64,000 nt of DNA from Candidatus Sulfopaludibacter sp. SbA3 (lineage in GTDB: Bacteria; Pseudomonadota; Alphaproteobacteria; Caulobacterales; Hyphomonadaceae): contig CAMDAC010000012.1 in the NCBI GenBank assembly GCA_945888325.1, positions 1 to 64,000 on the forward strand. Direction: 5' to 3'. The translations under genes and the position numbers were made by a program. Shown here piece by piece: positions 3,790 to 48,090 of this stretch (position 1 is its first letter; every line of letters starts with the position of its first letter). A model generated the notes under the pieces. It saw nothing but the letters and a program-made list of their open reading frames with translations. It made no database searches and was not told the origin of the DNA.

Positions 3790-4296
3790 ATGAACCTGCG
3801 CTTATCCGGACTGGCCGCAGCAGCGGCGCTGACCATGACGGCCTGTGCGACACCGGCCGCGCCAGCGGTTGTCATTACGGACCTCTCGTCAGAAGAGCTG
3901 CCGGCCAATGTACGCTCGCTGGCGGAAGGCGCAGCGGCGGGCTTTGTCGTCAGCGAAGCCCAGAAGAAAGTGCGCGATGGCCGGATCTACTATGACGTGG
4001 AGGGCAGCCTGCTCGACGGCAGCGAGATCGAGTTTGATATCCTGTTGACGGAGCAGGGACCGGAGATTGTCGAGATACAACGCGACATGCCGTGGGCTGA
4101 TGTTCCCGCTAGCGTGCGTGCGGCGGCAGAAGCGGCTGCGCCGGGTATGCTTCCGGCCCGCGTAATCGAAAGCCGCCAGCCGGATGGCGCAGTAATCTAT
4201 GAGCTTTTCGCCCCTGGCGCGCCGGCCGACCCGGCGATGGAAGTATCGCTGATTGGCGGCGTCGCAGCGGTCCTTGCCGAACGCTGGCCGCACTGA
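3790..4296 (+). CDS. Small PepSY-like lipoprotein
   Basis: A 168-residue exported lipoprotein: ATG at 3790 after GGGAGCGAAAAG, hydrophobic segment, then a lipobox-like MTAC. The mature part looks like two similar segments (IYYDVEGSLLDGSEIEFDIL and AVIYELFAPGAPADPAMEVS), each preceded by a helix, which recalls PepSY/DUF2874-type repeats. It lies 28 nt after the esterase and is probably cotranscribed with the pectin enzymes. Its role is unknown; periplasmic binding or inhibitor-like functions are possible for this fold. Confidence 0.7.
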   Translation: MNLRLSGLAAAAALTMTACATPAAPAVVITDLSSEELPANVRSLAEGAAAGFVVSEAQKKVRDGRIYYDVEGSLLDGSEIEFDILLTEQGPEIVEIQRDMPWADVPASVRAAAEAAAPGMLPARVIESRQPDGAVIYELFAPGAPADPAMEVSLIGGVAAVLAERWPH

Positions 4297-4306
4297 CGCT
4301 CGTCCC

Positions 4307-4342
4307 AAAAAAATGCCGCCGGTTCGGGGGCGAACCGGCGGC
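4307..4342 (-). terminator. Rho-independent terminator of the TonB receptor gene
   Basis: A perfect 12-bp stem (4315-4326 with 4331-4342) and 4-nt loop. Read on the minus strand it is followed by GCAT and seven Ts (4313-4307). It sits about 70 nt past the receptor stop codon, and as a hairpin it may also end transcription from the plus-strand lipoprotein gene. Confidence 0.85.
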
Positions 4343-4409
4343 TGGGGACGGACTTGAAATGCAGACGGCGGAGGGAGGGGACCGGCCGCCAGCCTGACTT
4401 GTTCAAACC

Positions 4410-7259
4410 TCAGTAGCGATAACGAACACCTACGACAAATTCGCGGCCGGTATGCTCGTAGTTCAGGCTGTTCTGACGCTGGCTGTTGATCCAGCGCTCA
4501 TCGTAAACATCCGTCAGGTTGATGGCTTCGAACGTCAGTTCGAGCTTCTCGGAAAGCTCGTACGAGGCCGAGAAATCGAGGTTCAGCGTCGCCGCCTTGC
4601 CTTCCACATCATTGCCGCTCGCGGCGGGTACCGTCGTCAGGTATTCGTCCCGCCAGCTGCTCGAGATGCGGGCTTCAAGCGGACCGCGCTCATAGTAAAG
4701 CGTTGCTGAGACCGAGGACGGGGACTGGCCGATCAGGGATTCGGTGACCGTTGCCCCGGTCGTTGGGTTGATGATGTAATCGAACTCCGAGTTGATGGCC
4801 GTGTAGTTGACGAGACCGCCGAAGCCCTGAAGCGGCTCGGGGATGAAGTCGAAGTTGAACGGCGTTTGCACGGTGAACTCGATGCCGTCCAGGACGCCGC
4901 CCGGCGTGTTCACGAAGTTCGTGACCGTGAAGACGTCATCCGGTGTGACGCCAACCGGAAGCAGAGAGTTCGGGAAGCCCGACTGCGAGTACGGGATCGT
5001 CCGTACAAGGCGTTGTGTGAAGCTCTCGATGTTCTTGCGGAACAGGGCGACCGAGAAGAGCGCTTCTTCGTATGGATACCATTCCAGTGAGAGATCGACG
5101 TTGGTGGAGCGGATGGGCTCCAGATAAGGGTTGCCCGAGGTGAGCGAGAAACCCGGCGGGCTGACATCGATCGTACCGCCCGGCGTTAGGGACGCAAGGC
5201 TCGGGCGTGCGATCGTCTTGGCGGCGGCAATGCGCAGCACAACATTTTCGGCAGGCTCAACAACGATGTTCATGGCCGGCAGGGTATCTTCGTACTTGAA
5301 GTTAGCCTCCACGGGCGAACCACTGAGGATGCCGACCGAAGTCAGGTCCGTCTCCACATACCGTACACCGACGTTTCCGCGCACCGGGATGTAGCCAAGG
5401 TCAGCCCGCCAGTCGAGCTGGACATAGCCGCCGGTCGACTTCTCGATGGCGCTGCGTGTTTCACCCGGGAACGCGGTCTGCCGGAAATCACCGAAAGTGT
5501 TGACGCAGTTGCAATCAAAATCGATCAGGGCGTTGAGGGCGTTGAGATCCGGGATGACCCAGCTGGTCGGCGTACCGACCGGAATATCCATGCCGTTTCC
5601 GAAGTTGGTCAGCAGCGTCGTATAGGCCGAAAGCGGGATCCCTTGGGCGTTCAGTTGGGAAATCGTTGCCGCGGTCACGGCTTCCGACGTGCGCCATTCC
5701 TTCACATCGAAACCGAACTCCTTGTAGGATGCGCCGCCGCTGAGCGTGAACATATCGTTGACGTCCCAGGCCAGATCAAGACGGCCCGTTTCATAGGAGT
5801 TGACGGTCTTGTTCGGACGCTGACGGATGATCGACGCATCGCCGGTTGCCGTGCTCGAGGAGAACACGAAGTTGGCCGGGTTGGTGACGTCGAATGCGTA
5901 GTTGAAACCCGGCAGGTTCGGGTCGGTATAGTCGTAGGAGTAGCCGTCGACATCATAACGCTCGAGCGAGATGGTCGTCTGCTGAGGGTTGGTGCCGATG
6001 GCACGCGAGACGCCGGCAAGACCGGACAGGCGGAGGTTGTCTGCGAGTTCGGATTCGAAGTTGACCGAGTTCTGGAAGAACTCCGTCGCCAGGACGTCGA
6101 TCCGCTGCTCGGTACGGATGTCCACATCGTTGAAAGTGCCCTGCACGAGCGTGGCGTTGTCATCGACGACACCCGAGACGAGGTCGACGCTGCGCAGGCC
6201 TTGCACGCCGGTTTCGCGTGCGAACGAGATGGCCTCGAGGAATTCTTCCGTACGCGTCTGGTCGAGCTGGGCGTAGAGGGAATCCACGGTGATCTCGGTG
6301 CCTTCCCAAGGCTCAACCTGGAAGGCGCCCGTGATGCCAAGCCGTTCGCGGTCATAACCAATACGGCCGTAGCGCGGAATGCGCGGGTGCGCGCCGCCTG
6401 CGGCGGCGACACGTGCCGCGGCCCCGGTGAGTAAGTTGCCGTTGGCATCCGTCACAGTGCCGACCGATTGGTAGCAGCGCGTCGTGTTGACGAAGTTGGG
6501 GCCGGCGCAGCCATCATCGGCCGGGACGCGGAAGCGGAGCGAGCTTGAGCCCTCTTCAAACGTGTTGCGGGTCGAGTAGGCGACCGAGAGCAGGGCGCCC
6601 ACGCGGTCATCGAACCAACGATCCGAGATCAGCGCGGTGAAGCGCGGGTCGGTGTTTTCCGAGAGGTCGTTGTAGGAGGCCTGCGCACCCGTGGCGAAGG
6701 TGAATCCATCATAGTCGAAAGGTTTGGCGGAGCGCAGCTGGACAGTTGCGCCGAGCGAGCCTTCATCCGTTTCGGCTTCCTGGGACTTCGCGATCTTCAC
6801 ACTGGTGAAGAGGTCTGCGGCGAAGACGTTGAAGTCGAACTGGCGGTTGCGGTTGGCGCGGCCGTCGCGGCCACCGGTTGTGGCGAGGGCTTCCATACCG
6901 TTGATCTGGACGCGGACGAAATCGGATGAAAGGCCGCGCACGTTGATCGAACGGCCTTCGCCGCCGTCGCGGTCGATCTGCACGCCGGGGACGCGCTGGA
7001 GCGCTTCAGCAAGGTTGAGGTCCGGGAAGTCGCCGATGTCTTCGGCGCTGATCGCATCCACGATACCGGTCTCGTTGCGCTTGACCGAAATGGCCTGCTG
7101 CAAGCTCTGGCGGAAGCCTGTGACAACGACCGTCTCCTGACGGCTCTCATCTTCGGCCGGAACGTCTGTTTCCTGAGCCGTTGCGCCACCCGCGATCAGG
7201 CCTACGGCAGCGGCGCTCATGAGCAGACGGAAATTGAAACTGGTATCCTTGAAACGCAT
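4410..7259 (-). CDS. TonB-dependent receptor, probable oligogalacturonide importer
   Basis: A 949-residue outer-membrane receptor. After a signal peptide ending near GGATAQ it has a TonB-box-like ETVVVTG, a plug domain (DLNLAEALQRVPGVQIDRD, then the RSINVRGL core) and a long beta-barrel ending in VVGVRYRY with the usual terminal aromatic. No carboxypeptidase-like N-terminal extension or SusD partner is seen, which is typical of proteobacterial TonB carbohydrate receptors. I chose the ATG at 7259, directly after GGAGAG, over an ATG 33 nt earlier. Two tandem ACCGGT operators lie 67-104 nt upstream. Specificity for pectin oligomers is inferred from this regulation and the neighbours. Confidence 0.9.
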   Translation of the reverse strand: MRFKDTSFNFRLLMSAAAVGLIAGGATAQETDVPAEDESRQETVVVTGFRQSLQQAISVKRNETGIVDAISAEDIGDFPDLNLAEALQRVPGVQIDRDGGEGRSINVRGLSSDFVRVQINGMEALATTGGRDGRANRNRQFDFNVFAADLFTSVKIAKSQEAETDEGSLGATVQLRSAKPFDYDGFTFATGAQASYNDLSENTDPRFTALISDRWFDDRVGALLSVAYSTRNTFEEGSSSLRFRVPADDGCAGPNFVNTTRCYQSVGTVTDANGNLLTGAAARVAAAGGAHPRIPRYGRIGYDRERLGITGAFQVEPWEGTEITVDSLYAQLDQTRTEEFLEAISFARETGVQGLRSVDLVSGVVDDNATLVQGTFNDVDIRTEQRIDVLATEFFQNSVNFESELADNLRLSGLAGVSRAIGTNPQQTTISLERYDVDGYSYDYTDPNLPGFNYAFDVTNPANFVFSSSTATGDASIIRQRPNKTVNSYETGRLDLAWDVNDMFTLSGGASYKEFGFDVKEWRTSEAVTAATISQLNAQGIPLSAYTTLLTNFGNGMDIPVGTPTSWVIPDLNALNALIDFDCNCVNTFGDFRQTAFPGETRSAIEKSTGGYVQLDWRADLGYIPVRGNVGVRYVETDLTSVGILSGSPVEANFKYEDTLPAMNIVVEPAENVVLRIAAAKTIARPSLASLTPGGTIDVSPPGFSLTSGNPYLEPIRSTNVDLSLEWYPYEEALFSVALFRKNIESFTQRLVRTIPYSQSGFPNSLLPVGVTPDDVFTVTNFVNTPGGVLDGIEFTVQTPFNFDFIPEPLQGFGGLVNYTAINSEFDYIINPTTGATVTESLIGQSPSSVSATLYYERGPLEARISSSWRDEYLTTVPAASGNDVEGKAATLNLDFSASYELSEKLELTFEAINLTDVYDERWINSQRQNSLNYEHTGREFVVGVRYRY

Positions 7260-36395: not shown

Positions 36396-38162
36396 GTGGT
36401 GCGGATACTGGTGGCAGCGGTCGTTGCGTTTCTCCTGGCGGCGGGCGAAGCCGCGCCTCAGGCAGAACCTGCGCCGGCGCGCCCCAACATCGTCATCCTG
36501 ATCATCGACGACGCCGCTTTCATGGATCTCGGCGCCTATGGCGGCGAAGCACGCACTCCGAACATTGACGCGCTGGCCGCGCGCGGCTCGCTGTTCACCC
36601 GCTACTATTCCTCGCCGCTCTGCTCGCCCTCGCGCGCGATGCTCCTCACCGGCATGGACAACCACCTGACCGGCGTCTCCACCATCCCCGAAGTCCTGCC
36701 AAAGGCGCACGAAGGCCAGCCCGGCTACACCATGCGCCTCGAGCCCGGCGTCGCCACGCTCGCCGAACGCCTGAAGCCCCTCGGCTATCGGACGCTGATG
36801 ACCGGCAAGTGGCACCTCGGCAGCGGCGAGGGCGATCTGCCGAAAGCCCACGGCTTTGACCGGTCCTTCGCGCTGGACGCGTCCGGCGCAGACAACTGGG
36901 AAGACAAGTCCTACATGCCGTACTACGCGGACGCGCCATGGTACGAGGACGACGTGCCGGCCAGCTTGCCGGACGACTTCTATTCCTCCGAATTCATCGT
37001 CGACCAGATGATGACCTACATGGACGAAGGGGACGCCGAAGCGCCGTTCTTCGCCTACCTCGCCTTCATGGCCGTTCATATCCCGGTGCAGGCTCCCCCG
37101 GAATTCACCGCGAACTATGCTGGCGTCTATGATGCCGGCTGGGACGCCACCCGCACCGCCCGCTGGGAGCGCGCGAAGGAACGCGGCTATGTGCCCGCCG
37201 ATGCCGCCCTCGCGCCGATGCCGGCTAACTTCCGCCCCTGGAACTCCCTTCCGGCGGAAGAGCAGAAACTTTACGCCGCCCGCATGCAGGTCAACGCCGG
37301 CATGCTCGAAGCGATGGATCACCATATCGGCCGCCTCGTTGAACACCTGAAATCCACAGGCCAATATGACAACACGGTCTTCGTGGTCACCTCTGACAAC
37401 GGCCCGGAACCGTCACGCGGCGACACGGACCCGCGCCTCAAGTTCTGGATGGACATGAACGGCTACCACCTGGACCTCGAAGGCATGGGCGAGAAGGGCA
37501 GCTGGGCTTTCATCGGCCCCGAATGGGCCATGGCCGCCGCTTCGCCGCATGACAAGTTCAAGTTCCTCGGCTCCGAAGGCGGCATCCGTGTGCCCTTCAT
37601 CATGTCCGGCGCAGGTCTAGGTGAGGGCAGCCGCGTCGATGCGCGGGCCTTTGTCGCCGATGTGGCCCCAACCCTGCTCGCGCTTGCGGGCGGTGGGCCG
37701 GAGCCGGACGGCGCCAAACCCATGACCGGCCGAAGCCTCTTGCCACTGCTGCGCGGCGAGACAAGCGCTGTCTACGGCCCGGACGATGCCATCGTCATTG
37801 AGGTCTCGGGAAACGCCGCAGTGATCAAAGGCGACTACAAGCTGACCCGCAACCAGCTCCCGCATGGCGATGCTCGCTGGCGCCTCTATGATCTCTCCAA
37901 AGATCCGGGCGAAACGACAGACCTCAGTGCGTCGTTCCCTGAAATCTACGATGATCTGTCCACGGAATATGCGGCCTACAGCAAGCGCGTTGGTGTTCTG
38001 GAAGTGCCGGAGGGCTACAATTCCCTCGATGAGGTCACCCGCCACTCGCTCGTCCGGCAGCAGGAACGCTACCGGCCTTACCTGATCGGCGGCGGCATTG
38101 CATTGTTTGCCCTCATTGCGGGCGGCGTGCTCCTCTGGCGCCGCCGCAAGCAAAAGGCTTGA
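36396..38162 (+). CDS. Type I (formylglycine) sulfatase with a C-terminal membrane anchor
   Basis: A 588-residue arylsulfatase-like enzyme. After a signal peptide (residues 1-21) it has NIVILIIDDAAFMDLGAYGG (metal-binding Asp pair), the maturation motif C76-S-P-S-R followed by AMLLTGM, TGKWHLG, VVTSDNGPEPSRGDTD and a C-terminal helix GIALFALIAGGVLLW with a basic RRRKQK tail that would tether it to the inner membrane. It hydrolyses a sulfate ester in the periplasm; the substrate is unknown. It lies just upstream of the TetR-type palindrome and before a gene cluster with a second sulfatase and an FGE, so they probably share a pathway, although it has its own promoter region. Confidence 0.9.
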   Translation: MVRILVAAVVAFLLAAGEAAPQAEPAPARPNIVILIIDDAAFMDLGAYGGEARTPNIDALAARGSLFTRYYSSPLCSPSRAMLLTGMDNHLTGVSTIPEVLPKAHEGQPGYTMRLEPGVATLAERLKPLGYRTLMTGKWHLGSGEGDLPKAHGFDRSFALDASGADNWEDKSYMPYYADAPWYEDDVPASLPDDFYSSEFIVDQMMTYMDEGDAEAPFFAYLAFMAVHIPVQAPPEFTANYAGVYDAGWDATRTARWERAKERGYVPADAALAPMPANFRPWNSLPAEEQKLYAARMQVNAGMLEAMDHHIGRLVEHLKSTGQYDNTVFVVTSDNGPEPSRGDTDPRLKFWMDMNGYHLDLEGMGEKGSWAFIGPEWAMAAASPHDKFKFLGSEGGIRVPFIMSGAGLGEGSRVDARAFVADVAPTLLALAGGGPEPDGAKPMTGRSLLPLLRGETSAVYGPDDAIVIEVSGNAAVIKGDYKLTRNQLPHGDARWRLYDLSKDPGETTDLSASFPEIYDDLSTEYAAYSKRVGVLEVPEGYNSLDEVTRHSLVRQQERYRPYLIGGGIALFALIAGGVLLWRRRKQKA

Positions 38163-38175
38163 GCAATCTTCATGA

Positions 38176-38198
38176 TTATGGCACTTAGAGTGCCATAA
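38176..38198. promoter_or_regulatory. TetR-type operator, left copy
   Basis: TTATGGCACT (38176-38185) and AGTGCCATAA (38189-38198) form a perfect 10-bp inverted repeat with a 3-nt spacer. The core TGGCAC-N5-GTGCCA recurs at 45801-45817 before the facing operon. It lies about 100 nt upstream of the gene at 38297. It is not followed by Ts, which argues against a terminator for the preceding sulfatase. Confidence 0.75.
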
Positions 38199-38296
38199 TA
38201 ACCGTTTCACACGAAAGGCTCGGTGAGCCGTATGGTCCACATTGCCTTCTTGCTCGCACATGGCGCACTCAGGCGCTTGGAAGGGGGCGTCCCCTC

Positions 38297-39571
38297 ATGT
38301 CCCTGAAAACCTTGCTGGTTTCGCGGATTGCCGCGATCTTCACCGGCGAAAAGAGACTGATACGGAACCGAGCCATGCAGGAATCCCGTCGCCTCGCGGC
38401 TTCAGCGCCTCACACGGTCGAATACTTCCACGAAGCGGCGGATCCCTATTCACACCTCGCCGCGCAGGCGCTGGCAAGCCTTTTGGCGCGCTACGACATC
38501 GCGCTGCAAGTTCACCTCGTCGGCCCGCCGGCCGACTGGGCCGCGCCGGAGCGCGAGCGTCTGGAAGCTTACGCCCGGCTGGATGCCCAGCGCCTCGCCC
38601 GCAAGGCGGAACTTGGGTTTGCGGATCCGGGCGCGCAGCCCGGTGCAGCCCAGATCCAGCGCGCCAATGCCCGGCTCGCGGCCGCGATCAAGTCAGGCAG
38701 TTTCCCGACCGAAGCGCCCGCGATCGGCGAAGCGCTCTGGAACGCCACCCTCGAAGGCGAAGCCCAATCAGTAAACCTTGCCGCGGGCAATGCGCGGCGC
38801 GAAGACCTCGGCCATTATCTCGGCGGCACGTTCCACTATGGCGGCGAATGGTACTGGGGCATCGACCGGCTGCACTATCTTGAGGCCCGTCTGATCGAAC
38901 TCGGAGCCCGCAAGCCGGATACCGGCACTGCCTTGGTGTTTCCGCCGCCTGTCTCTCCCTCGGGTGGCGCGCGTTCGTCCGCGCCGCTGGAACTGCATTA
39001 TTATCTCTCCTTCAGGAGTCCGTACACGTACATTGTGGCGGCCCGGGCCAAGGCGCTCGCGGATGCTTACGGGGCTGAGCTAAAGCTGCGCTATGTGCTG
39101 CCTATGGTAATGCGCGGCCTGCCGGTGCCCCGCATGAAAAGCCGGTACATCACGTTCGATACCGCCCGCGAAGCGCGCCGCCACGGTGTCCCGTTTGGCA
39201 AGATCGCAGACCCGGTCGGCAAGCCCGTGGAGCGCGGCTATTCGATCCTGTCCTGGGCGCAGGCGCAGGGCAGGGGCTATGAATTCTGTCACGCCTTCCT
39301 CACCGGCGTCTGGTCGCAGGGCATTGATGCCGGCAGCGATTCCGGCCTGCGCCAGATCGTCGAGGCAGCTGGCCTCGACTGGAACACCGCCCGCCAGCAG
39401 CTGGACACCGACACCTGGCGCGCCGAAGCCGAAGCCAACCGCGCCGAAATGATGGCCCTCGGAGTCTGGGGCGTGCCCAGCTTCCGGGTGGGCGATGTAA
39501 TCACCTGGGGGCAGGACCGCCTCTGGGTCATCGAGGAAGAATTGAAACGTCAAGCCGGACAATCCGTCTAA
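38297..39571 (+). CDS. Tandem DsbA-fold protein (HCCA isomerase/GST-kappa-like)
   Basis: A 424-residue protein with two DsbA-like thioredoxin-fold domains in tandem. Domain 1 starts at HTVEYFHEAADPYSHLAAQ (about residue 40), domain 2 at LELHYYLSFRSPYTYIVAAR (about residue 233) and ends with LGVWGVPSFRVGDVITWGQDR. Neither domain has a Cys-x2-Cys active site; the SxRSPYTY start matches 2-hydroxychromene-2-carboxylate isomerase/GST-kappa proteins, which use glutathione. There is no signal peptide, but a basic N-terminus of about 30 residues precedes domain 1. It is first in the operon behind the left TetR-type palindrome. Role unknown; glutathione-dependent isomerisation or conjugation is plausible. 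Confidence 0.75.
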   Translation: MSLKTLLVSRIAAIFTGEKRLIRNRAMQESRRLAASAPHTVEYFHEAADPYSHLAAQALASLLARYDIALQVHLVGPPADWAAPERERLEAYARLDAQRLARKAELGFADPGAQPGAAQIQRANARLAAAIKSGSFPTEAPAIGEALWNATLEGEAQSVNLAAGNARREDLGHYLGGTFHYGGEWYWGIDRLHYLEARLIELGARKPDTGTALVFPPPVSPSGGARSSAPLELHYYLSFRSPYTYIVAARAKALADAYGAELKLRYVLPMVMRGLPVPRMKSRYITFDTAREARRHGVPFGKIADPVGKPVERGYSILSWAQAQGRGYEFCHAFLTGVWSQGIDAGSDSGLRQIVEAAGLDWNTARQQLDTDTWRAEAEANRAEMMALGVWGVPSFRVGDVITWGQDRLWVIEEELKRQAGQSV

Positions 39572-39583
39572 GGAGGAATATAC

Positions 39584-40042
39584 ATGCAGGTATTGAACGA
39601 AGTTTTCCCGACCGACCCCGCTCGCTTCTCGGCGATGATGGAGAAAGGGCCCGACGGCCCCATCTTCATGGTCAACCTTCTGAAATTCAAGGACAAGGCC
39701 GCGTATGACGACGGCCGCCCCTGTGATCTTTCCGGCCGCGACGCCTACATGATCTACGGCCGCGCCGTTACCGAACTCCTGCCGAAATTCGGCGGGCGCG
39801 GGATCTTCGCCGGCGATGTGACCTTCCTTGCGCTCGGCCAGGTCGAGGAGCTTTGGGACGAAGTCGCCATCGCGATGTATCCCGACCGCGCCTCGATGGT
39901 GCGCATGTCCCTCTCCGAGGAGTGGCGCGAAATCGCGGTGCACCGCTCCGCCGGCCTCAAGGGCCAGTTGAACATCGAAACCGTGCTGCCGCAGACGGGT
40001 GTTGCGTCACCCTTCCTCGACATGATCAAGGCGCTGGGCTGA
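39584..40042 (+). CDS. DUF1330-like protein
   Basis: A 152-residue cytoplasmic protein with the ferredoxin-like DUF1330 pattern: GPIFMVNLLKFKDKAAY, AYMIYGRAV, FAGDVTFLALGQVEELWDEV and MYPDRASMVRMSLSEEWRE. The family is of unknown function and is often found beside oxidative catabolic genes. It begins 12 nt after the tandem DsbA-like gene with a strong AAGGAGGA ribosome site. Confidence 0.82.
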   Translation: MQVLNEVFPTDPARFSAMMEKGPDGPIFMVNLLKFKDKAAYDDGRPCDLSGRDAYMIYGRAVTELLPKFGGRGIFAGDVTFLALGQVEELWDEVAIAMYPDRASMVRMSLSEEWREIAVHRSAGLKGQLNIETVLPQTGVASPFLDMIKALG

Positions 40043-40046
40043 GACC

Positions 40047-41132
40047 ATGGGACCCGTTCGCTGGACTCTCCTCATCGCAGGCGCCGCTGCCGTGCTCTTC
40101 TTCGCGGGCGCCCAGGTCTTCCGTGTGCAGATCTCGGAATTCCTGTTCGAACGCGCGGTAAAGCAGAACATCGGCCGTAACTCTGCCGCGGGTCTGGATG
40201 ATGGTCTCCACGTCTACGTTTGCGGCGCGGGCTCCCCGTTCCCCGACCCCCAGCGCGGCGGCCCCTGTCTTGCCCTCATCGCTGGCGACCAGCACATCAT
40301 CATCGACGCAGGCTCCGGCGGTATCCGGACCTTGACCCGAATGGGCTATCCCGTCTCCGAGATCGACGCGGTCTTCCTCACCCATCTGCACTCGGATCAT
40401 ATGGACGGTCTCGGTGAACTCCTCATGCAGGCCTGGGTCAATGGCGGCCGGGATGTGCCGATGCCGGTTCACGGGCCCACCGGCGTGGAAGAAGTCGTGA
40501 ACGGTTTCAACGCCGCTTACCGCATCGACAGTACCTATCGCACCGGCCATCACGGCCCCGAAATCGCCAACCCCGAAGGCCGCGGCGGCGCGCCCATCCC
40601 GATCACCATGCCCGCGGGCCCCGGCGGCCAGTCCGTCGTCTACGACGCGGGCGGCCTGACGATCACTGCCTTCAAGGTCAGCCATGCCCCGGTCGAGCCG
40701 GCCTATGGTTACCGCGCTGACTACAAGGGCCGTTCGGTCTCGATCAGCGGCGATTCGATTTACGATGCGAACCTCGTCGCCGTCTCCACCGGCACGGACC
40801 TCCTGTTCCATGATGCGCTGAACCCCGACATGGTTCTCCGCTTGCGCGAAGCGATGGCCGAAGCGGGCAGGGACGATCTTGCCAAGGTGCTGAACGACAT
40901 CCTCGATTATCATGCGACGCCCGCAGACGCCGCCCGAGCGGCCCAGGATGCCGGCGCCGCGCGCCTCGTCCTTTACCATACCGTCCCTCCGCTGCCGTCA
41001 CGTGCGCTAAACGCCTTGTTCATGAAGGACGGTCAGGCTCTATTTGACGGCCCGATGGAGGTCGCCGAAGATGGCCTCATCTACTCCCTGCCTGCGGCTA
41101 CCGGGTCGATTGAAGTCAAGAAAGCGTTCTGA
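40047..41132 (+). CDS. Membrane-anchored metallo-beta-lactamase-fold hydrolase
   Basis: A 361-residue MBL-fold protein. Residues 5-24 form an N-terminal membrane helix without an obvious cleavage site. The metal site THLHSDHMD (His113, His115, Asp117, His118) follows IIIDAGSGG; SHAPVEPAYGYRADYKGRSV and ISGDS provide further ligands, and LYHTVPPLPS lies near the C-terminus. The layout is RNase Z/arylsulfatase-like, with an insertion between the metal motifs. A sulfatase or lactonase activity is possible; an RNase role is unlikely for an anchored protein. It starts 4 nt after the DUF1330 gene. Confidence 0.82.
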   Translation: MGPVRWTLLIAGAAAVLFFAGAQVFRVQISEFLFERAVKQNIGRNSAAGLDDGLHVYVCGAGSPFPDPQRGGPCLALIAGDQHIIIDAGSGGIRTLTRMGYPVSEIDAVFLTHLHSDHMDGLGELLMQAWVNGGRDVPMPVHGPTGVEEVVNGFNAAYRIDSTYRTGHHGPEIANPEGRGGAPIPITMPAGPGGQSVVYDAGGLTITAFKVSHAPVEPAYGYRADYKGRSVSISGDSIYDANLVAVSTGTDLLFHDALNPDMVLRLREAMAEAGRDDLAKVLNDILDYHATPADAARAAQDAGAARLVLYHTVPPLPSRALNALFMKDGQALFDGPMEVAEDGLIYSLPAATGSIEVKKAF

Positions 41133-41744
41133 ATGACCGACCTGAAAATTGTTCCGCTCGATGCTGCAGCCAAGTCCGACATCTCCGACGGACGGCGCCA
41201 GCGCAGCGAGCGTAGCCGTGCGCAGATCATTGAGGCGATGTTCAGCCTCATCCGCGAAGGCGAGATGAGCCCCAGCGCCGCCCGCGTTGCCGAACGCGCC
41301 GAAGTCGGCCTTCGGACGGTCTTCCGCCACTTCGAGGACATGGACAGCCTCTATGTCGAGATGGCCGAGCGCATCTCATCGGAAGTGATGCCGAAAATTC
41401 TCGCGCCGTTCGAGGCGCGCGACTGGCGCGAACGTTTCTTCGAACACATCGCCCGCCGTATCGAGATCTACGAACACATCCTGCCTGTGCGGGTCTCGGC
41501 CAACCTTCGCCGCTTCCAGTCCCGCTTCCTCATGGAGGAATACCGCCGCAGCCTCCTGATCGAGCGTTCGACCCTCACGGCGCTCCTGCCGGAGGAGATC
41601 AACAACGATCCCATCCTGTTCGCCGCCATCGAAACCTCTGCCAGCTTCCAGACATGGCGCCGCTTGCGCCAGGATTCGGACCTCGCACCGTACGAAGCCG
41701 GCGCTGTCTTCCGGCTGATGCTGGAACGCCTCCTCGGCGCATGA
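41133..41744 (+). CDS. TetR-family transcriptional regulator
   Basis: A 203-residue regulator. The N-terminal helix-turn-helix (about residues 28-75) has RSRAQIIEAMFSLIREGEMS and ERAEVGLRTVFRHFEDMDSL, followed by an all-helical ligand domain. It starts immediately after the MBL gene's stop and overlaps the FGE gene by 4 bp, so it is cotranscribed with the operon it probably controls. The two TGGCAC-N5-GTGCCA palindromes that begin this operon and the facing one are the natural candidates for its operator (inference). Confidence 0.88.
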   Translation: MTDLKIVPLDAAAKSDISDGRRQRSERSRAQIIEAMFSLIREGEMSPSAARVAERAEVGLRTVFRHFEDMDSLYVEMAERISSEVMPKILAPFEARDWRERFFEHIARRIEIYEHILPVRVSANLRRFQSRFLMEEYRRSLLIERSTLTALLPEEINNDPILFAAIETSASFQTWRRLRQDSDLAPYEAGAVFRLMLERLLGA

Positions 41745-42673
41745 GGCGCGCGGGCGCGCTGCTCGCAGCGGCAATCCTTGCCGCATGCGGTGCCGCAGCG
41801 CCACCGGATGCTCCGCAGGCTGATGGATCGCTGCAGACTTGCGGTCTGGACGCGGGTGCCATCGGCCAATTCGTCAACGTCCCCGCCGGCCAGTACCGCA
41901 AGGGCGCCTATGCCGTCTATCCCGAAGAAGCGCCCGAGATGATCCTGCATTTCGCAGGCTTCGAGATGCTCGCCCATGAAGTCACCAATGCCGAGTTTGC
42001 CCGCTTCACTGAGGCCACCGGATATCTGACGACGGCCGAGCGCAGCGCGGCCGCCGGTGGCCCAGGTGCAGGTTCCGCCGTGTTCCGTATGCCAGCCGAA
42101 CGCGCGGCGCCCACCGACACCTGGCAACTCGTCCCCGGCGCCACCTGGCGCGAACCCGAAGGTCCGGGGACGGATATTTCGGCGCGGGCGAACCATCCGG
42201 TCGTGCACGTCTCGCTTGCTGACGCCGAAGCCTACGCCGCCTGGGCCGGCGCCCGGCTGCCGACCGAAGAGGAATGGGAATACGCCGCCGCCATAGGCCT
42301 ACCAGATCCCGCCGACCCCCAGTCAGGCGCCTACGACGCCTCAGGCAAACCTGTCGCCAATACGTGGCAAGGCATTTTCCCGGTTGCGGATCAGGCGTCG
42401 GACGGAGTCGCCGGCCGCGCTGCGGCTGGCTGTTTCGCCCCGAGCGCCATCGGCCTCTACGACATGATCGGCAATGTTTGGGAATGGACCGCCACGCCCT
42501 ACCAGACAGGCGAGAACACCATCAAGGGCGGCTCCTATCTATGTGCGGACAATTTCTGCCGCCGCTACCGGCCAGCCGCCCGCCAGCCCCAGGAGGCGGA
42601 CTTCTCCTCAAGCCATATCGGCTTCCGAATCGTGAGAGACACAGGCCAAGCCGGATCAAGCGCGCCGGAGTGA
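41741..42673 (+). CDS. Formylglycine-generating enzyme (sulfatase maturase), lipoprotein
   Basis: A 310-residue FGE/SUMF1-domain protein that converts the active-site cysteine of type I sulfatases to formylglycine. The C-terminal motif GGSYLC268-A-D-N-F-C273-RRYRPAAR keeps both copper-binding cysteines with the canonical spacing. Other landmarks are EVTNAEFARFTEATGYLTTAE, HPVVHVSLADAEAYAAWAG, RLPTEEEWEYAA and YDMIGNVWEWT. The N-terminus is a lipoprotein signal with lipobox LAAC16, implying that it acts outside the cytoplasm. The ATG at 41741 overlaps the tetR stop. Two CxPSR-type sulfatases are encoded within 6 kb, making them the obvious clients. Confidence 0.9.
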   Translation: MRRAGALLAAAILAACGAAAPPDAPQADGSLQTCGLDAGAIGQFVNVPAGQYRKGAYAVYPEEAPEMILHFAGFEMLAHEVTNAEFARFTEATGYLTTAERSAAAGGPGAGSAVFRMPAERAAPTDTWQLVPGATWREPEGPGTDISARANHPVVHVSLADAEAYAAWAGARLPTEEEWEYAAAIGLPDPADPQSGAYDASGKPVANTWQGIFPVADQASDGVAGRAAAGCFAPSAIGLYDMIGNVWEWTATPYQTGENTIKGGSYLCADNFCRRYRPAARQPQEADFSSSHIGFRIVRDTGQAGSSAPE

Positions 42674-43090
42674 CATTGCCAGTAGCACCAGCAGAACAGG
42701 CACGCTGCCCAATGTCACCCAGACTTCCGGGGGATGATGGCCGCCTGCCAGATGGCCGCCCTTCGGCCCCCACATGTTCCAGGTGTGCAAGGCGCGTTCA
42801 AGGGCCAGCAGGCCCAGCGCGAGGGGCACGAGCGAGCGGTATCGCAAGGACACCGCGAGCAACATCAGTCCCCAGACGAATTGTGTTGTCCCGGCCCAGG
42901 CAAACAGGCTGACGATGGTGCGCTTGTCGCCCGAGAGGTCAAGCCCGGCAATTACGCCGGCGCCGCCGTCGGGCAGCCCTATGTGCAGCAATGCCGGAAT
43001 GATCGTTGCCGCCGCAATGACGGTCAGCGCCCAGGCAGCTGCCTTCATGCCCCGATAGGAGTCGTTGGTGGAGGCGGGAAACAAGGACAT
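42656..43090 (-). CDS. Four-helix membrane protein of unknown function
   Basis: A protein of about 144 residues with four hydrophobic helices (WALTVIAAATIIPALLHI, a segment ending FVWGLMLLAVSL, LVPLALGLLALE, WVTLGSVPVLLVLLAM) and a HxW-containing loop, HTWNMWGPKGGHLAGGHH. I prefer the ATG at 43090; a GTG at 43114 would overlap the preceding sulfatase. It is the last gene of the minus-strand operon and overlaps the end of the convergent FGE gene by 18 bp. No family recognised. Confidence 0.7.
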   Translation of the reverse strand: MSLFPASTNDSYRGMKAAAWALTVIAAATIIPALLHIGLPDGGAGVIAGLDLSGDKRTIVSLFAWAGTTQFVWGLMLLAVSLRYRSLVPLALGLLALERALHTWNMWGPKGGHLAGGHHPPEVWVTLGSVPVLLVLLAMSLRRA

Positions 43091-43101
43091 GCCGGGCGCC
43101 G

Positions 43102-44760
43102 TCAGTTGGGCCACCAGACGATCTCGTCCCCGGCCGTCAGCTCCTCCGCGCCCGTCTTGTCGATCGACACCGGTATGTCCGACGTCGACGCATACAGCGG
43201 CGCACGCGCGTTCTCATGGTGCCGGTCCAGCAGGGCTTGCAGTTCCGCCAGCTTCTCGGGCTCGCTTGCCGCGAGGTTTGTCGACTCAGTCGGATCTTTC
43301 CCGAGGTCGAACAACCAGGACTTGCCCTGCTTGCCATCCACCTGCAGCTTCCAGTCGCCCGCCCGCACCACGCGGTAATAGCCGCTCTGCCAGAACAGTG
43401 CATCGTCCGCGCGGGCGAGCCCGCCCACTCTCTCCGCTAACGGAAGAAGGCTGCGCCCGTCGATCTCCACGCCGGCCGGCAGGACCGCGCCCGCGGCTTC
43501 GGCCAGTGTGGGCGTCACATCGATATGCGCCACCGGCGTGTCGATCACCGTGCCTGCCGGAATACGCGCCGGCCAGCTGACGAACATCGGTACACGGATG
43601 CCGCCTTCGAACAGCGAGAGCTTCCAGCCGCGATAGGGGTCATTGATGCCCGCCAGATCGATATAGCCCGGTCCGCCATTGTCACTGGAAAACACGATGA
43701 TCGTGTTCTCGGCGAGGCCCTCTTCTTCAAGTTTTGCAACGATCTGTCCCACGCTGCGGTCGAGCGCGCGCAGCATCGCTGCGTACACCCGCAGCTTGTG
43801 CGAGCCGACATCGCCGACCGCGTCATAGTCTTCCTTCGTCGCCTGCAGCGGCGTGTGCACGCCCCAGTGGGCGAGATAGAGGAAGAACGGCTGGTTCTTG
43901 TTGGCCTCGATCACCTTGAGGGATTCCGCAGTCCAGTAATCGGCAAGGTATCCGCCCGGCGCAAAGGTCGGCCCGCCATTGTAGGACGTCGAAAAATCGC
44001 CGCGGGCCCAGAGGAACTTGTCGATTGGGTCCGTCTCGACCTTGGCGTTCACGACGCCCGGATCATCTGCCGGCAGATGAAGCAGCCCTGTCATGTTGAG
44101 GCTTTCGTCAAAGCCTTGTGCATTCGGATGGAACTCGCCCGAATTGCCGAGATGCCACTTGCCGATATGAACGGTGTGATAGCCCTTGTCTTTCAGCATT
44201 TCGGCGATCGTCACTTCAGACCCGGGCAAGCCTTGGTCCGCGAAATCGGGAAGTGTGGCGGCCGCCTTCGGGTCATAGCCCACCTTCGGCCGCCCCCGCG
44301 TGTCTTCATTGGCGAACAGGGTAACGATCCGCCCCATGCCGTTTGGCGTCGGCGTGAATTCGAACCCCGTCCGCGTCGGATAGCGGCCCGTCAGCAGCAT
44401 CGCGCGTGACGGCGCGCAGGTGCCTGTGCCGGAATAGGCCGTGGTGAAGTTGGCGCCGCGCGCGGCGAGCGCATCAATGTTCGGTGTCGGCACGCGCCCG
44501 CCTGCGACGCCGCCGCCAAAGGTTGTGATGTCGTTGATGCCGAGGTCATCCACGAGAATGAAAATGATGTTTGGCGGCCGGTCGCTTGGCGCAGTCACGG
44601 CGGCGGCCGGTCCCTGCATCCAGGCTACCGGCTCGTAGGGCGCAATCTCTGGCCGGTCGGCGCGGGTGACCAGAAACAGGATGATCTCTTTCCGGAAGTA
44701 AAAGCCAAGCGCGCCCGCGCCTACAATTATCGCCAGGATTATCAGCAATATGCGTTTCAT
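43102..44760 (-). CDS. Type I (formylglycine) arylsulfatase, N-terminally anchored
   Basis: A 552-residue sulfatase. An N-terminal helix (MKRILLIILAIIVGAGALGF) is followed by NIIFILVDDLGINDITTFGG, the maturation motif C115-A-P-S-R with AMLLTGRYPTRTG, HIGKWHLGNSGEFHP, HWGVHTPLQATKEDYD, VFSSDNGGPGYID and the C-terminal DWKLQVDGKQGKSWLFDL. This resembles N-acetylgalactosamine-6-sulfatase and arylsulfatase A groups. The start at 44760 places the anchor at the N-terminus; an open frame continues upstream but overlaps the dehalogenase gene. It is second in the minus-strand operon behind the right TetR-type palindrome. Substrate unknown. Confidence 0.9.
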   Translation of the reverse strand: MKRILLIILAIIVGAGALGFYFRKEIILFLVTRADRPEIAPYEPVAWMQGPAAAVTAPSDRPPNIIFILVDDLGINDITTFGGGVAGGRVPTPNIDALAARGANFTTAYSGTGTCAPSRAMLLTGRYPTRTGFEFTPTPNGMGRIVTLFANEDTRGRPKVGYDPKAAATLPDFADQGLPGSEVTIAEMLKDKGYHTVHIGKWHLGNSGEFHPNAQGFDESLNMTGLLHLPADDPGVVNAKVETDPIDKFLWARGDFSTSYNGGPTFAPGGYLADYWTAESLKVIEANKNQPFFLYLAHWGVHTPLQATKEDYDAVGDVGSHKLRVYAAMLRALDRSVGQIVAKLEEEGLAENTIIVFSSDNGGPGYIDLAGINDPYRGWKLSLFEGGIRVPMFVSWPARIPAGTVIDTPVAHIDVTPTLAEAAGAVLPAGVEIDGRSLLPLAERVGGLARADDALFWQSGYYRVVRAGDWKLQVDGKQGKSWLFDLGKDPTESTNLAASEPEKLAELQALLDRHHENARAPLYASTSDIPVSIDKTGAEELTAGDEIVWWPN

Positions 44761-44779
44761 GCCGCGTTCGCCCCCTTTG

Positions 44780-45766
44780 TTATCCCTGCCGCATGAAGGT
44801 GATGATCGCCTCGGAAAACGCGGCCGGCTGGTCTTCCTGCAGGAAGTGTCCGCCATTTTTGATGGTGACACAATCGGCGCCGGAAATGCGCGCCTTGAAA
44901 ACTGCGTCGCCGCCCTTGGTGACAGGGTCGCCGTCGCTGAACGCAATCAGCGTGCGGCCTGTAAACGCCTCGAGCACCGCCCAGGCGCGGTCGTTCGCCA
45001 GCCGGTCTTCCTTGTGCTGGGGCAGCAGCGGCACCAGCGCCGGAAACTTCCGGGCACCCGCGATATAGCGATCATCCGGGAACGGAGCGACATAGCCATC
45101 AAGGATCCGGGCATCTGTCACGCCGGACAGCAATCCGAACACATCGCGTACCGAGAAGGAGGACGATTCGCTCGCATACTTCACCCAGTAGAGGAACGCC
45201 CCCGGCCCGCCGGACTGGAACTGCTCGCGCACCATGCCCGCATCCGGCACCGGCACAGCCGGATACATCTGACCGAGAAACGCAGACATCTCGTCCGAAA
45301 TCATCGCCGTGCTTGGCAGGCCCGTATTCGCGACGACGATCCGCTTGAACCGTCCGATCTGGTTCGCCGCCACGCGCAGGCCGATCAGCCCGCCCCAATC
45401 CTGACAGACCAGCGTCAATCCGCCGAGGTCCATCTTCGTTAGCCACTGGCCCAGCCAATCCACATGCCGCGCATAGGTATAATCGGCCATCGCGCCCGGC
45501 TTGTCGGATTTGCCGAAACCGATCAGGTCTGGCGCCAGAACGCGGTAACCCGCGTTCGTCAGTAGAGGGATCATCTTGCGATAGAGATAGCTCCACGAGG
45601 GCTGCCCGTGCAGGCAGAGGATCGGCTCGCCGTCCTTCGGGCCCTCGTCGAGGTAATGCATCCGCATCGCCTCACCGCCAGGGCCAGCAATGTCGACATA
45701 GTGCGGCGCAAATCCGTACTCGAACAGGGCGTCGAACTGCGCATCAGGTGTTCTGAGAATCTGCAA
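44780..45766 (-). CDS. Haloalkane dehalogenase-like hydrolase (DhlA/HLD-I type)
   Basis: A 328-residue alpha/beta-hydrolase closely patterned on DhlA. It has the N-terminal LRTPDAQFDAL, MHYLDEG, the oxyanion motif LCLHGQPSWSYLYRKM, PDLIGFGKSDKP, nucleophile Asp123 and halide-binding Trp124 in VCQDWGGLIG, an acid in FSDGDPVTKGG and the histidine in NGGHFLQED. These would hydrolyse a carbon-halogen bond, or possibly another good leaving group. No signal peptide. First gene of the minus-strand operon, 35 nt after the right TetR-type palindrome; followed by a sulfatase. True halogenated substrate not known. Confidence 0.87.
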   Translation of the reverse strand: MQILRTPDAQFDALFEYGFAPHYVDIAGPGGEAMRMHYLDEGPKDGEPILCLHGQPSWSYLYRKMIPLLTNAGYRVLAPDLIGFGKSDKPGAMADYTYARHVDWLGQWLTKMDLGGLTLVCQDWGGLIGLRVAANQIGRFKRIVVANTGLPSTAMISDEMSAFLGQMYPAVPVPDAGMVREQFQSGGPGAFLYWVKYASESSSFSVRDVFGLLSGVTDARILDGYVAPFPDDRYIAGARKFPALVPLLPQHKEDRLANDRAWAVLEAFTGRTLIAFSDGDPVTKGGDAVFKARISGADCVTIKNGGHFLQEDQPAAFSEAIITFMRQG

Positions 45767-45800
45767 GGCTCCGGCCTCCCCGCCAGCAAGTTTTATAATA

Positions 45801-45817
45801 TGGCACGAATAGTGCCA
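45801..45817. promoter_or_regulatory. TetR-type operator, right copy
   Basis: TGGCAC-GAATA-GTGCCA (45801-45817), the same 6-5-6 core as at 38178-38194, with AT-rich flanks on both sides. It lies 35 nt before the dehalogenase start. Together the two sites bracket the facing operons that contain tetR. Confidence 0.75.
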
Positions 45818-45844
45818 ATTAGGGGGTGCGTCAATCGGGGAAGC

Positions 45845-47065
45845 TCAAGTTACCTTCGCGCGGGCGTGGAATTGCGGCTGGTCCCAGCTCTTTGTCGCAA
45901 GGATGTCCGCCAGCGCCGCCATCGCGTCCCAAACCGCGCCATAGCTCAGGAACAGGGGCGAGAATCCGAACCGCACAGTATCAGGCGAACGGAAGTCCGC
46001 CATCACGCCGCGCGCCGCCAGCGCCTGCACGACCGGATAGCCTTCGGTAATCCGTAGACTGACATGTCCGCCGCGGCGCCGGTCCTCCACCGGGCAGAGC
46101 ACCTCCAGCCCCATCGCCTGCGCCTGCGCTATCGCCAGCGCCCCAAGGCCTCGCGCCTTAGCCTGAAGCTGGCCGAGGTCCACGCCCTCGATTGCCTCCA
46201 GCGCCCCGCTGAGCGCCGCGAGTGAAAGGATCGGCGGCGTCCCGCTGGCAAAGCGTGCTACGCCGTCTCGGGGCACATACTTTCCGTCAAACGCAAATGG
46301 CGCGGCATGCCCCATCCAGCCGGGAAGAGGATTGGCGAGCTTCGGCGACAGCGCCGCCGCTACGTAGACAAAGGCCGGCGCGCCCGGGCCGCCATTCAGA
46401 TATTTGTACGTACACCCCGCCGCGAGCACCGCGCCGTCCTCGGCCAGTTTCAGATCGAGGACGCCGGTCGCATGGCTGAGGTCCCAGATGATCAGCGCCC
46501 CGTGCCGCCTCGCCTCGCGCTCATGCGCAGCGATGTCGGCCACTTCAGAGGAGCGATAATTCACCGCGCTCTTGATCACCACGCCGCCTGCTTTCAGCGC
46601 GTCGAAGCTGCCGCCCGGCGCGAGCTGGCGCACTTCCGCGCCCGACAGTCCGCCCAGCCCCGCCGCGATATACTGGTCCGTCGGAAACTCGTCTTCTTCC
46701 ACGAACAACGCATAGGTTTGCGCCTGCGGCAGCGCGGCGGCGGCGAGTTTGAACAGGTTCACCGACACGCTGTCGGCCACGATCACCTCGCCGGGCCTTG
46801 CGCCGAGCAGCGCGGCCAGCCGGTCGCCGGTGCGTTCGGCGAGATCGATCCAGCCTGCCGAATTCCAGCTGCGCACGAGGTCGCCGGCCCAGTCGGCTTG
46901 CGCGGCGGCGAGCCGGTCCCGCGCGCCTTTGGGTGGCGGTCCCAGCGAATGGCCGACCAGATAGGTCACGCCGTCCGGCAGGTCGAACAGCGCGGCCCGG
47001 TCCGCCAGCGGATCAGCGGCGTCGCGCTGCAGCGCCTCTTCGCGCGTGGTAGGGGCCTGGGTCAT
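45845..47065 (-). CDS. kynU: Kynureninase
   Basis: A 406-residue PLP enzyme that cleaves kynurenine (or 3-hydroxykynurenine) to anthranilate (or 3-hydroxyanthranilate) and alanine. It has YLVGHSLGPPPKGAR, SWNSAGW, VADSVSVNLFKL, IIWDLSHATG (cofactor Asp), the PLP lysine in GCTYKYLNGGPGAPAF and FASGTPPILSLAAL. The ATG at 47065 gives the usual length; the open frame extends further upstream without family similarity. No other tryptophan-degradation gene is certain here, although the divergent hydrolase has formamidase-like motifs. Confidence 0.93.
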   Translation of the reverse strand: MTQAPTTREEALQRDAADPLADRAALFDLPDGVTYLVGHSLGPPPKGARDRLAAAQADWAGDLVRSWNSAGWIDLAERTGDRLAALLGARPGEVIVADSVSVNLFKLAAAALPQAQTYALFVEEDEFPTDQYIAAGLGGLSGAEVRQLAPGGSFDALKAGGVVIKSAVNYRSSEVADIAAHEREARRHGALIIWDLSHATGVLDLKLAEDGAVLAAGCTYKYLNGGPGAPAFVYVAAALSPKLANPLPGWMGHAAPFAFDGKYVPRDGVARFASGTPPILSLAALSGALEAIEGVDLGQLQAKARGLGALAIAQAQAMGLEVLCPVEDRRRGGHVSLRITEGYPVVQALAARGVMADFRSPDTVRFGFSPLFLSYGAVWDAMAALADILATKSWDQPQFHARAKVT

Positions 47066-47136
47066 GCCGGTGCTTGCCTCATGGAGTGAAGCCCGCAACA
47101 GTAGAGGCGAAGCCCCCGGCGGCAAGGGAGAGAAGC

Positions 47137-48090
47137 GTGTGGAAACAACAGTTTGCAGCGGCGGCACTGGCCCTGGTGGCGGCTTGCGCGCCGGCGCGGG
47201 AAGAGGCGGCGACTCCCGAGGTACCTGTCATGGCTGAGCCGTCAAAGCTGATGACCTGGGACGACCTTTCGGCGCTGCCGCGTCCGGTGGCCTCACACAC
47301 CATCCGGTGGGGCGAGGGGGTGACGGATGTCGTGGATCTCTGGTTGCCGGAGGGGGCCGGGCCGCATCCGGTGGTCGTGATGGTGCATGGCGGTTGCTGG
47401 CAAAAATCCATTGCTGACAAGAACTTGATGGACTGGATGGCGGACGGTTTGCGCCAGCAGGGCTGGGCGGTGTGGAACATCGAGTACCGGGGCGTGGACG
47501 AGCCCGGCGGGGGGTATCCCGGCACGTTCCTCGATGCGGGCGCGGCGACGGACCAGCTCCGGGAGCATGCGGCTGAATACAATCTCGATCTCTCGCGGGT
47601 GACCGGGATCGGGCATTCGGCGGGTGGGCACCTGATCCTGTGGCTCGCGGCCCGCTCGAAGCTGCCCGACGACAGCCCGCTGCGGGTGTCGGATCCGCTG
47701 CAATTTCAAGGCGTTGTCGTCTCGGGCGGCCTCGCGGATCTGGAGGCTTCGCGGCCGGTGACCGCGCCTGGCTGTCTCGATGCGATCTACGACCAGCTGA
47801 CCGGTCCGGCCTCGCCGGAGCGGCCGGATCCGCTGTCGGATACTTCGCCCGCGCGGCTGTTTCCGGTGGGGGTGGCGTTCGTCAGCGTCAACGGGAGTGA
47901 GGACAGGATTGCCCCGCCGATGCTGGGCGACGCGTTGACGCGAAAGGCCGAGGCAGCGGGAGATTCCGCTTCATTGGTCATCATTCCGGCCACAGGCCAT
48001 GTCGAACTCGTCTCGCCGGGTACACAGGCGTTCGACATTCAGTCTCAGATCTTATCAGATTTTATCGCTTCTCCGGGGACGCCGAAGTAG
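47137..48090 (+). CDS. Lipoprotein alpha/beta hydrolase, kynurenine-formamidase-like
   Basis: A 317-residue secreted hydrolase. GTG start at 47137 after GGGAGAG; signal peptide with lipobox VAAC. It has the HGG oxyanion motif (VMVHGGCWQKS), nucleophile elbow GIGHSAGGHLI, acid region SEDRIAPP and the histidine in PATGHVEL. The HGGxW plus GHSAGG pattern is that of the alpha/beta-hydrolase arylformamidases (KFA) and BD-FAE esterases. It is divergent from kynU with about 70 bp between. Formamidase activity on N-formylkynurenine would fit the neighbour, but an extracytoplasmic lipoprotein location argues for a general esterase instead. Confidence 0.78.
   Translation: MWKQQFAAAALALVAACAPAREEAATPEVPVMAEPSKLMTWDDLSALPRPVASHTIRWGEGVTDVVDLWLPEGAGPHPVVVMVHGGCWQKSIADKNLMDWMADGLRQQGWAVWNIEYRGVDEPGGGYPGTFLDAGAATDQLREHAAEYNLDLSRVTGIGHSAGGHLILWLAARSKLPDDSPLRVSDPLQFQGVVVSGGLADLEASRPVTAPGCLDAIYDQLTGPASPERPDPLSDTSPARLFPVGVAFVSVNGSEDRIAPPMLGDALTRKAEAAGDSASLVIIPATGHVELVSPGTQAFDIQSQILSDFIASPGTPK

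Follow-up and report, generated by a model that had tools for sequence, protein, structure and literature searches.

A conserved sulfatase and haloalkane dehalogenase gene island, probably under TetR control, with a predicted two-compartment layout

The gene island and its conservation

The DNA described here is a stretch of 64,000 nucleotides (the window; positions 1 to 64,000 of contig CAMDAC010000012.1, assembly GCA_945888325.1), deposited as Candidatus Sulfopaludibacter sp. SbA3 and placed by GTDB in the Hyphomonadaceae. It carries a gene island that encodes two sulfatases, a formylglycine-generating enzyme (FGE), a haloalkane dehalogenase (HLD), a TetR-family regulator and several accessory proteins. 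An earlier note, made from the sequence alone, had described two facing operons behind TGGCAC-N5-GTGCCA palindromes, and this layout was borne out, with every named gene found in the window. The plus operon (38297-42673) encodes DsbA2, a DUF1330-like protein, a metallo-beta-lactamase-fold hydrolase (MBL), TetR and FGE, and the minus operon facing it (45766-42656) encodes HLD, the sulfatase SulfB and the small membrane protein TM4. Sequence comparisons give good support to the view that these genes form a conserved, dedicated and co-regulated set predicted to act in two compartments. Ten window proteins were annotated with Pfam profiles, and the genome searched comprised 3,281,823 bases in 65 contigs. 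The features are as follows.

36396..38162, plus strand: SulfA, Cys-type S1 sulfatase with a predicted signal peptide and C-terminal hydrophobic anchor (PF00884, 2e-59)
38175..38199, no strand: operator 1, ATTATGGCAC-N5-GTGCCATAAT, about 110 bp 5' of DsbA2, kept in relatives
38297..39571, plus strand: DsbA2, tandem thioredoxin-fold protein, C-terminal half HCCA isomerase/GST kappa-like, without CxxC (PF01323)
39584..40042, plus strand: DUF1330-like protein (PF07045, E 1.7e-4, slightly under the cut-off)
40047..41132, plus strand: MBL, metallo-beta-lactamase-fold hydrolase with a predicted N-terminal membrane anchor (PF12706)
41133..41744, plus strand: TetR-family regulator (PF00440, E 6e-4, under the cut-off)
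41741..42673, plus strand: FGE, predicted exported lipoprotein with an LAAC box (PF03781, 2.9e-61)
42656..43114, minus strand: TM4, small membrane protein by hydropathy, without a Pfam match, with a homologue in an operon on contig C29
43102..44760, minus strand: SulfB, Cys-type S1 sulfatase with a predicted N-terminal membrane anchor (PF00884)
44780..45766, minus strand: HLD, subfamily-I-like haloalkane dehalogenase by active site and fold, no leader seen
45797..45821, no strand: operator 2, centre about 43 bp 5' of HLD

The FGE start was reset to the ATG at 41741, which gives an ATGA overlap with tetR, and the SulfB start was reset to 44760. Because SulfA lies 5' of operator 1, it was not placed under this operator in the window. 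The perfect 10-bp arms reported for palindrome 1 were recovered (38175-38184 and 38190-38199), but its core sits at 38179-38195, one position away from where it had been put; the core of palindrome 2 is at 45801-45817 as described, and its outer arms are imperfect. The DUF1330 label stands only as an approximate one, the match being just short of the Pfam cut-off (22.3 versus 23 bits), and the membrane protein said to have four helices gave only two strong hydrophobic segments in a crude hydropathy scan.

The gene set recurs in relatives, including distant ones, as the earlier note had required of a real system. A DsbA2 match at E <=1e-70 was found in 20 of the 37 genomes of the genus, taken to be Hyphomonas, 27 DsbA2 neighborhoods from the genus and from other genomes of the order were compared, and at least 80 further loci were found in named genomes, which to judge from their titles are mostly Alpha-, Beta- and Gammaproteobacteria. 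In Alpha- and Betaproteobacteria the set recurs with reshuffled gene order, the betaproteobacterial proteins being about 36-54% identical to those of the window. After removal of 14 duplicates, 94 loci were counted (L044 and L074, which are the same contig, were both retained): DsbA2 was called in 86, MBL in 53, SulfB in 48, SulfA in 43, TetR in 42, FGE in 37, DUF1330 in 25, and HLD and a GST-like family in 24 each. These counts are lower bounds, since our own codon-usage script, used to call the relatives' genes, missed some of them, including HLD in the window itself and DsbA2 in eight of the 94 loci; many loci are also cut off by contig ends. Across the 37 Hyphomonas genomes, 16 carry both DsbA2 and HLD, 14 neither, four DsbA2 only and three HLD only (Fisher p 2.3e-4, a statistic that ignores descent). 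The marine restriction suggested in the earlier note was not upheld, as several related loci come from pond records or from genera such as Limnohabitans and Limnobacter, that is, from freshwater.

In two loci titled Acidobacteria (L073 and L074) the island is present with a DsbA2 identity of 89-91% and in the synteny of the window; these records are probably mislabelled or mixed bins. A plasmid-borne island was considered and dropped, since no DsbA2 match at E 1e-60 turned up in the plasmid collection.

Enzyme families and predicted compartments

Both window sulfatases match PF00884 and carry the S1 signature C-x-P-[ST]-R, as CSPSR and CAPSR. They are thus Cys-type sulfatases, the type that FGE requires. 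In relatives, the SulfA family is Cys-type in 43/43 members, one of them recognised only among the misses of the pattern, and the SulfB family has C-x-PSR in 43/47, two of the four exceptions reading CTVSR. The genome holds three sulfatase-family matches, two of them in the island and the third weak. The closest solved structure to SulfA is the Pseudomonas aeruginosa arylsulfatase 1hdh (359 bits), while the carrageenan S1 sulfatases are the closest to SulfB among solved structures. The FGE protein aligns with human FGE across both cysteines of the C-x4-C motif, which form the FGE active site, and the motif is kept in 35 of the 37 family members.

Compartments were judged by a simple hydropathy scan. 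An N-terminal hydrophobic segment was found in 53/53 MBL, 44/49 SulfB and 38/43 SulfA proteins, and a C-terminal one in 39/43 SulfA proteins; such an N-terminal segment is rare in DsbA2 (1/86), HLD (2/24) and GST (0/32). The sulfatases and MBL are therefore predicted to be anchored outside the cytoplasm, and HLD, GST and DsbA2 look cytoplasmic. For FGE the scan gave 26/37, and an automatic pattern found a lipobox in 18/37; inspection by eye of the 19 misses revealed a short leader ending in Cys in 13, a hydrophobic anchor in five and one cut sequence. These observations support a predicted location of FGE outside the cytoplasm. An extracytoplasmic formylglycine-generating enzyme would, to our knowledge, be unusual in bacteria, and in the open-licence literature we found nothing on point about an exported FGE. 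The island has in common with 1hdh and human FGE (SUMF1) a Cys-type sulfatase and its maturing enzyme type. In the part of a review that we drew on, Cys-type sulfatases are described as typically cytosolic (PMC3920027); unlike that description, and unlike 1hdh and SUMF1, the island sulfatases are predicted to be exported and anchored and its FGE to be a lipoprotein. If this is true, island FGEs probably act outside the cytoplasm.

HLD has the full catalytic pentad (Asp-His-Asp and two halide-stabilising Trp) and an alpha/beta-hydrolase fold with cap, consistent with subfamily I, and a haloalkane dehalogenase activity is predicted. The two tryptophans are retained in 24/24 and 23/24 HLD sequences. 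HLD shares its fold and pentad, at 47-50% identity, with DmrA, DpcA and DccA (4mj3, 6f9o, 5esr). Unlike these, the Hyphomonas-type HLD has a cap region longer by about 30 residues (about residues 152-190). This extension is also present in L081 and L117 and absent from betaproteobacterial forms.

The DsbA2 profile matches PDB entries 3fz5 and 2imd, and its AlphaFold model (pLDDT 89.7) had 2imd as top Foldseek match. In the family, S-P-[YF] is found in 85/86 members (70 by the strict pattern and 15 among its misses) and CxxC in only one of 86. The protein thus combines a DsbA-like fold, a Ser in S-P-[YF] and no CxxC, as HCCA isomerase and GST kappa do, differing from these by an additional N-terminal domain, and it is a putative glutathione-type enzyme. 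For MBL the nearest solved structure is 8gyg, named 'Arysulfatase', and HxHxDH is conserved in 52/52 family members. None of the ten annotated window proteins matched Alkyl_sulf_dimr or Alkyl_sulf_C, the domains expected of an SdsA1-type alkylsulfatase. An SdsA1/Pisa1-type alkylsulfatase adjoins the island in five loci, with several Hyphomonas among them (e.g., L055, 16346-18295); in L081 one lies immediately 5' of HLD (4292-6352). As a core member this gene was dropped, MBL-fold and DNA-ligase genes intervening in part of the loci.

Palindromic operators and candidate regulon members

Allowing up to two mismatches to the core, the window holds six matches versus 3.6 expected by shuffling, and 24 of 100 shuffles reach six; because this count is near shuffle level, only the two perfect window palindromes were considered, and both sit at the two operon starts. 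The perfect core is rare genome-wide, as the earlier note had asked, with three copies in 3.28 Mb, two in the island and one on contig C24 upstream of a gene outside the set. With one mismatch, 11 sites were found versus 19 for a reversed control pattern, so the bare short core says little by itself. When its flanks were included, operator 1 gave five sites at up to three mismatches versus none for the control; operator 2 has other flanks and does not figure among these five. In relatives the operator arms vary jointly (e.g., TTGACAC-N5-GTGTCAA), which is what a dimeric regulator would give. The window TetR protein matches the TetR_N helix-turn-helix domain below the cut-off (E 6.2e-4, 19.9 bits versus 24). 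We infer that it binds the palindromes and acts by repression. The third perfect palindrome (C24:42877; L071, 5500-6347) lies about 15-30 bp 5' of a regulator gene, which we take to be Rrf2-like, opposite a gene that is presumably TonB-receptor-like.

A weight matrix was built from six sites in the window and close relatives and was tested on 87 other loci. A strong site was defined as one scoring at or above 13.4, the level missed by 95% of shuffled loci (first-order Markov resamples). The training loci and L044 were excluded, some close relatives of the training loci stayed (e.g., L076, L077, L097), and the test loci are related by descent and hence not independent events. Strong sites were found in 27 of the 36 loci where the TetR family was called versus 11 of the 51 others, and in 21 of these 27 the site lies upstream of an island-family gene. 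Overall, 38 of 46 strong sites are upstream of island-family genes, a position that makes up 6.4% of the sequence. Where no TetR was called (51 loci), a site occurs in 8/21 loci with at least three island families versus 3/30 others.

In eight genus genomes HLD was off the DsbA2-island contig or newly placed in the island. Seven of these loci were examined; G001 was left out, as HLD and DsbA2 are there on separate short contigs, which explains the split. In 7/7 the top-scoring motif of the locus is 41-53 bp 5' of the HLD start, with scores of 13.8, 16.4, 16.9, 14.9, 7.9, 11.8 and 19.2, two of them under 13.4; the lowest, in G027 (L163), is still the top of its locus. In five of the seven, HLD sits among other genes with a common gene content, and these probably go back to one ancestor, while in two it occupies the DsbA2 position beside DUF1330, TetR, FGE and the sulfatases.

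Two more operons elsewhere in the genome probably belong to the regulon. On C29 a one-mismatch palindrome is centred about 33 bp 5' of the start codon of a second dehalogenase (HLD2), 52% identical to HLD over the best stretch and followed by the TM4 homologue (38% over 72 residues) and by a GST belonging to a family that is located within the island in other species. The HLD2 operon had no match at E 1e-90 in the 36 other genus genomes and was found in four genomes of the order, with a good operator in L177 (17.6) and L179 (17.7) and none in L178 and L180. Beside it on the opposite strand lie genes for a TetR protein, an FAD-binding protein and a DAPG-hydrolase-domain protein (L171, 3546-6402). 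On C63 an operator-like site is located about 50 bp 5' of an SCP2-family gene and a second such site overlaps the start called for a c10-family gene (c10 being present in 10/94 related loci), near a DUF2855 gene (family in 4/94 loci). For the SCP2 gene, a search of the genus at E 1e-20 found no match, and none of the five relatives it has in the order shows a good operator. A further operator-like site at C8:103098 is about 320 bp from a GST gene (about 480 bp from its likelier start), inside another called ORF; for the one at C7:58574 no link to the set was seen.

Proposed function and competing explanations

With modest confidence we favor a repressor-controlled two-step route, with desulfation outside the cytoplasm and dehalogenation and glutathione-linked processing inside. 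The most likely role would be to catabolise or detoxify a hydrophobic compound that bears both sulfate and halogen. In such a route the TetR-family repressor would hold off the two island operons, and probably the two others in the genome, until an inducer arrives. The exported lipoprotein FGE would mature the sulfatases outside the cytoplasm, where they, being anchored, would take sulfate off an incoming hydrophobic sulfate ester, and the anchored MBL hydrolase might cleave one more ester or sulfate. Once inside the cell, the released product would have its halogen swapped for a hydroxyl by HLD, and DsbA2 and GST would isomerise or conjugate it before ordinary oxidation. In this scheme the gene set, its co-occurrence, the conservation of the operator and the active-site residues are observed, the anchors and leaders are predicted from sequence, and the order of steps, like a single substrate bearing both sulfate and halogen, is proposed. 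Of the dedicated pathway put forward in the earlier note, the co-regulated two-compartment set stands, through co-occurrence, the operator-TetR association and the predicted compartments; the specific substrate is conjectural.

Several observations weigh against this route. DsbA2, SulfA and HLD were called together in only 14/94 loci, SulfA in 43 and HLD in 24 (all lower bounds), so that dehalogenation would not be needed in every member, and six loci have an epoxide-hydrolase-type gene in place of HLD. No transporter was found among the ten annotated window proteins, sulfatase homology indicates aryl and carrageenan substrates, and the genome encodes two more FGE-domain proteins. A strong operator is lacking in 9/36 TetR loci and present in 11/51 loci without a TetR call, although in one of the 11 (L103) the gene caller had missed a TetR gene seen in another comparison. 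The C29 and C63 operons look accessory and are hence weaker as regulon members.

It is possible, if on the unlikely side, that the substrate is a sulfated, non-halogenated hydrophobic compound (an alkyl, steroid or terpenoid sulfate) and that HLD is a general hydrolase or serves for halogenated co-pollutants. The rarity of HLD calls and the six epoxide-hydrolase-type replacements agree with this, as do the SDR, AMP-binding, fatty acid hydroxylase, FMO and wax ester synthase neighbors in some loci, the SCP2-like gene behind an operator-like site and the five loci in which an SdsA1-type alkylsulfatase adjoins the island. However, the halide-stabilising tryptophans are kept almost throughout, the operator accompanies the relocated HLD, and the second HLD has its own one-mismatch operator. 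Improbable in our view is a co-regulated defence against mixed algal chemicals, in which sulfatases and HLD would act on separate compounds such as a sulfated polysaccharide and organohalides. In the portion of PMC5613140 used here, Zobellia TetR and HLD-like genes lie by a kappa-carrageenase and are carrageenan-induced, and SulfB is nearest to carrageenan sulfatases among solved structures; yet no glycoside hydrolase family was found in the ten window proteins or in selected annotated neighbors of relatives. A polysaccharide locus had been considered and was rejected, with no such gene among the ten annotated window proteins. One TonB receptor was found, in L104, so that uptake of a large compound is conceivable.

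A reading of the palindromes as sigma-54 promoters or chance occurrences, with the genes adjacent merely by descent, is highly improbable. TGGCAC-N5-NTGC resembles a -24/-12 element, and the one-mismatch core is no rarer than its control; but the sigma-54 reading was ruled out by co-variation of both arms, and the set and operator persist while gene order reshuffles. Chance was likewise rejected: the one-mismatch core is not enriched, but position and conservation are.

As for the substrate of the favored two-step route, our best guess, of low probability, is algal chlorosulfolipids (chlorinated alkyl sulfates). As far as the cited part of PMC13413282 goes, these sulfate esters with aliphatic chlorine occur in freshwater chrysophytes, and mass spectrometry of coastal plankton samples gave putative identifications of them. 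In relatives, or at relatives' HLD, lie genes of AMP-binding, fatty acid hydroxylase, enoyl-CoA hydratase and thiolase-like type; together with the SCP2 gene they are compatible with a lipid, and also with other hydrophobic sulfates. It is doubtful that the island is the first chlorosulfolipid-breakdown system known in bacteria, one in which, under one TetR operator, two anchored sulfatases matured by an extracytoplasmic FGE would desulfate these polychlorinated lipids of freshwater and marine algae outside, and one or two dehalogenases with glutathione enzymes would strip chlorine inside.

Among known systems, the SLF module (slfR-slfCHSL) of Psychrobacter pP62BP1, for degradation of SDS, is like the island a compact repressor-controlled operon and, like the proposed route, links desulfation to processing of the aliphatic product (PMC10779009, in the part cited). 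It differs by its AraC/XylS regulator and by its genes, for an aldehyde oxidoreductase, an alcohol dehydrogenase, an alkyl sulfatase and a fatty-acid-CoA synthetase; as described in that part of the source, it lacks an FGE, an S1 sulfatase, a dehalogenase and an HCCA-isomerase-like protein. Zobellia galactanivorans ZGAL_234-236 resembles the island in having TetR and HLD-like genes next to one that serves to degrade a sulfated polymer of algae, but it is a polysaccharide locus, its HLD domain is 40% identical to DbjA, and the sections of PMC5613140 that we cite describe no operator analysis, DsbA2 or FGE. No description of the island set as one regulon was found in the open-licence PMC literature, which is weak evidence of absence. 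Every enzyme family involved is already known. If the proposal is true, the operator predicts further regulon members in each genome, and the island offers a concrete gene set with which to look for degraders of chlorosulfolipids and other sulfated organohalides.

Outside the island, a kynureninase-like gene (45845-47167; 192 bits versus a cut-off of 246) lies directly 5' of operon 2. Its association with the island is lost in distant relatives: this gene, the hydrolase at 47074 and other window neighbors are found only in loci whose DsbA2 is at least 72% identical.

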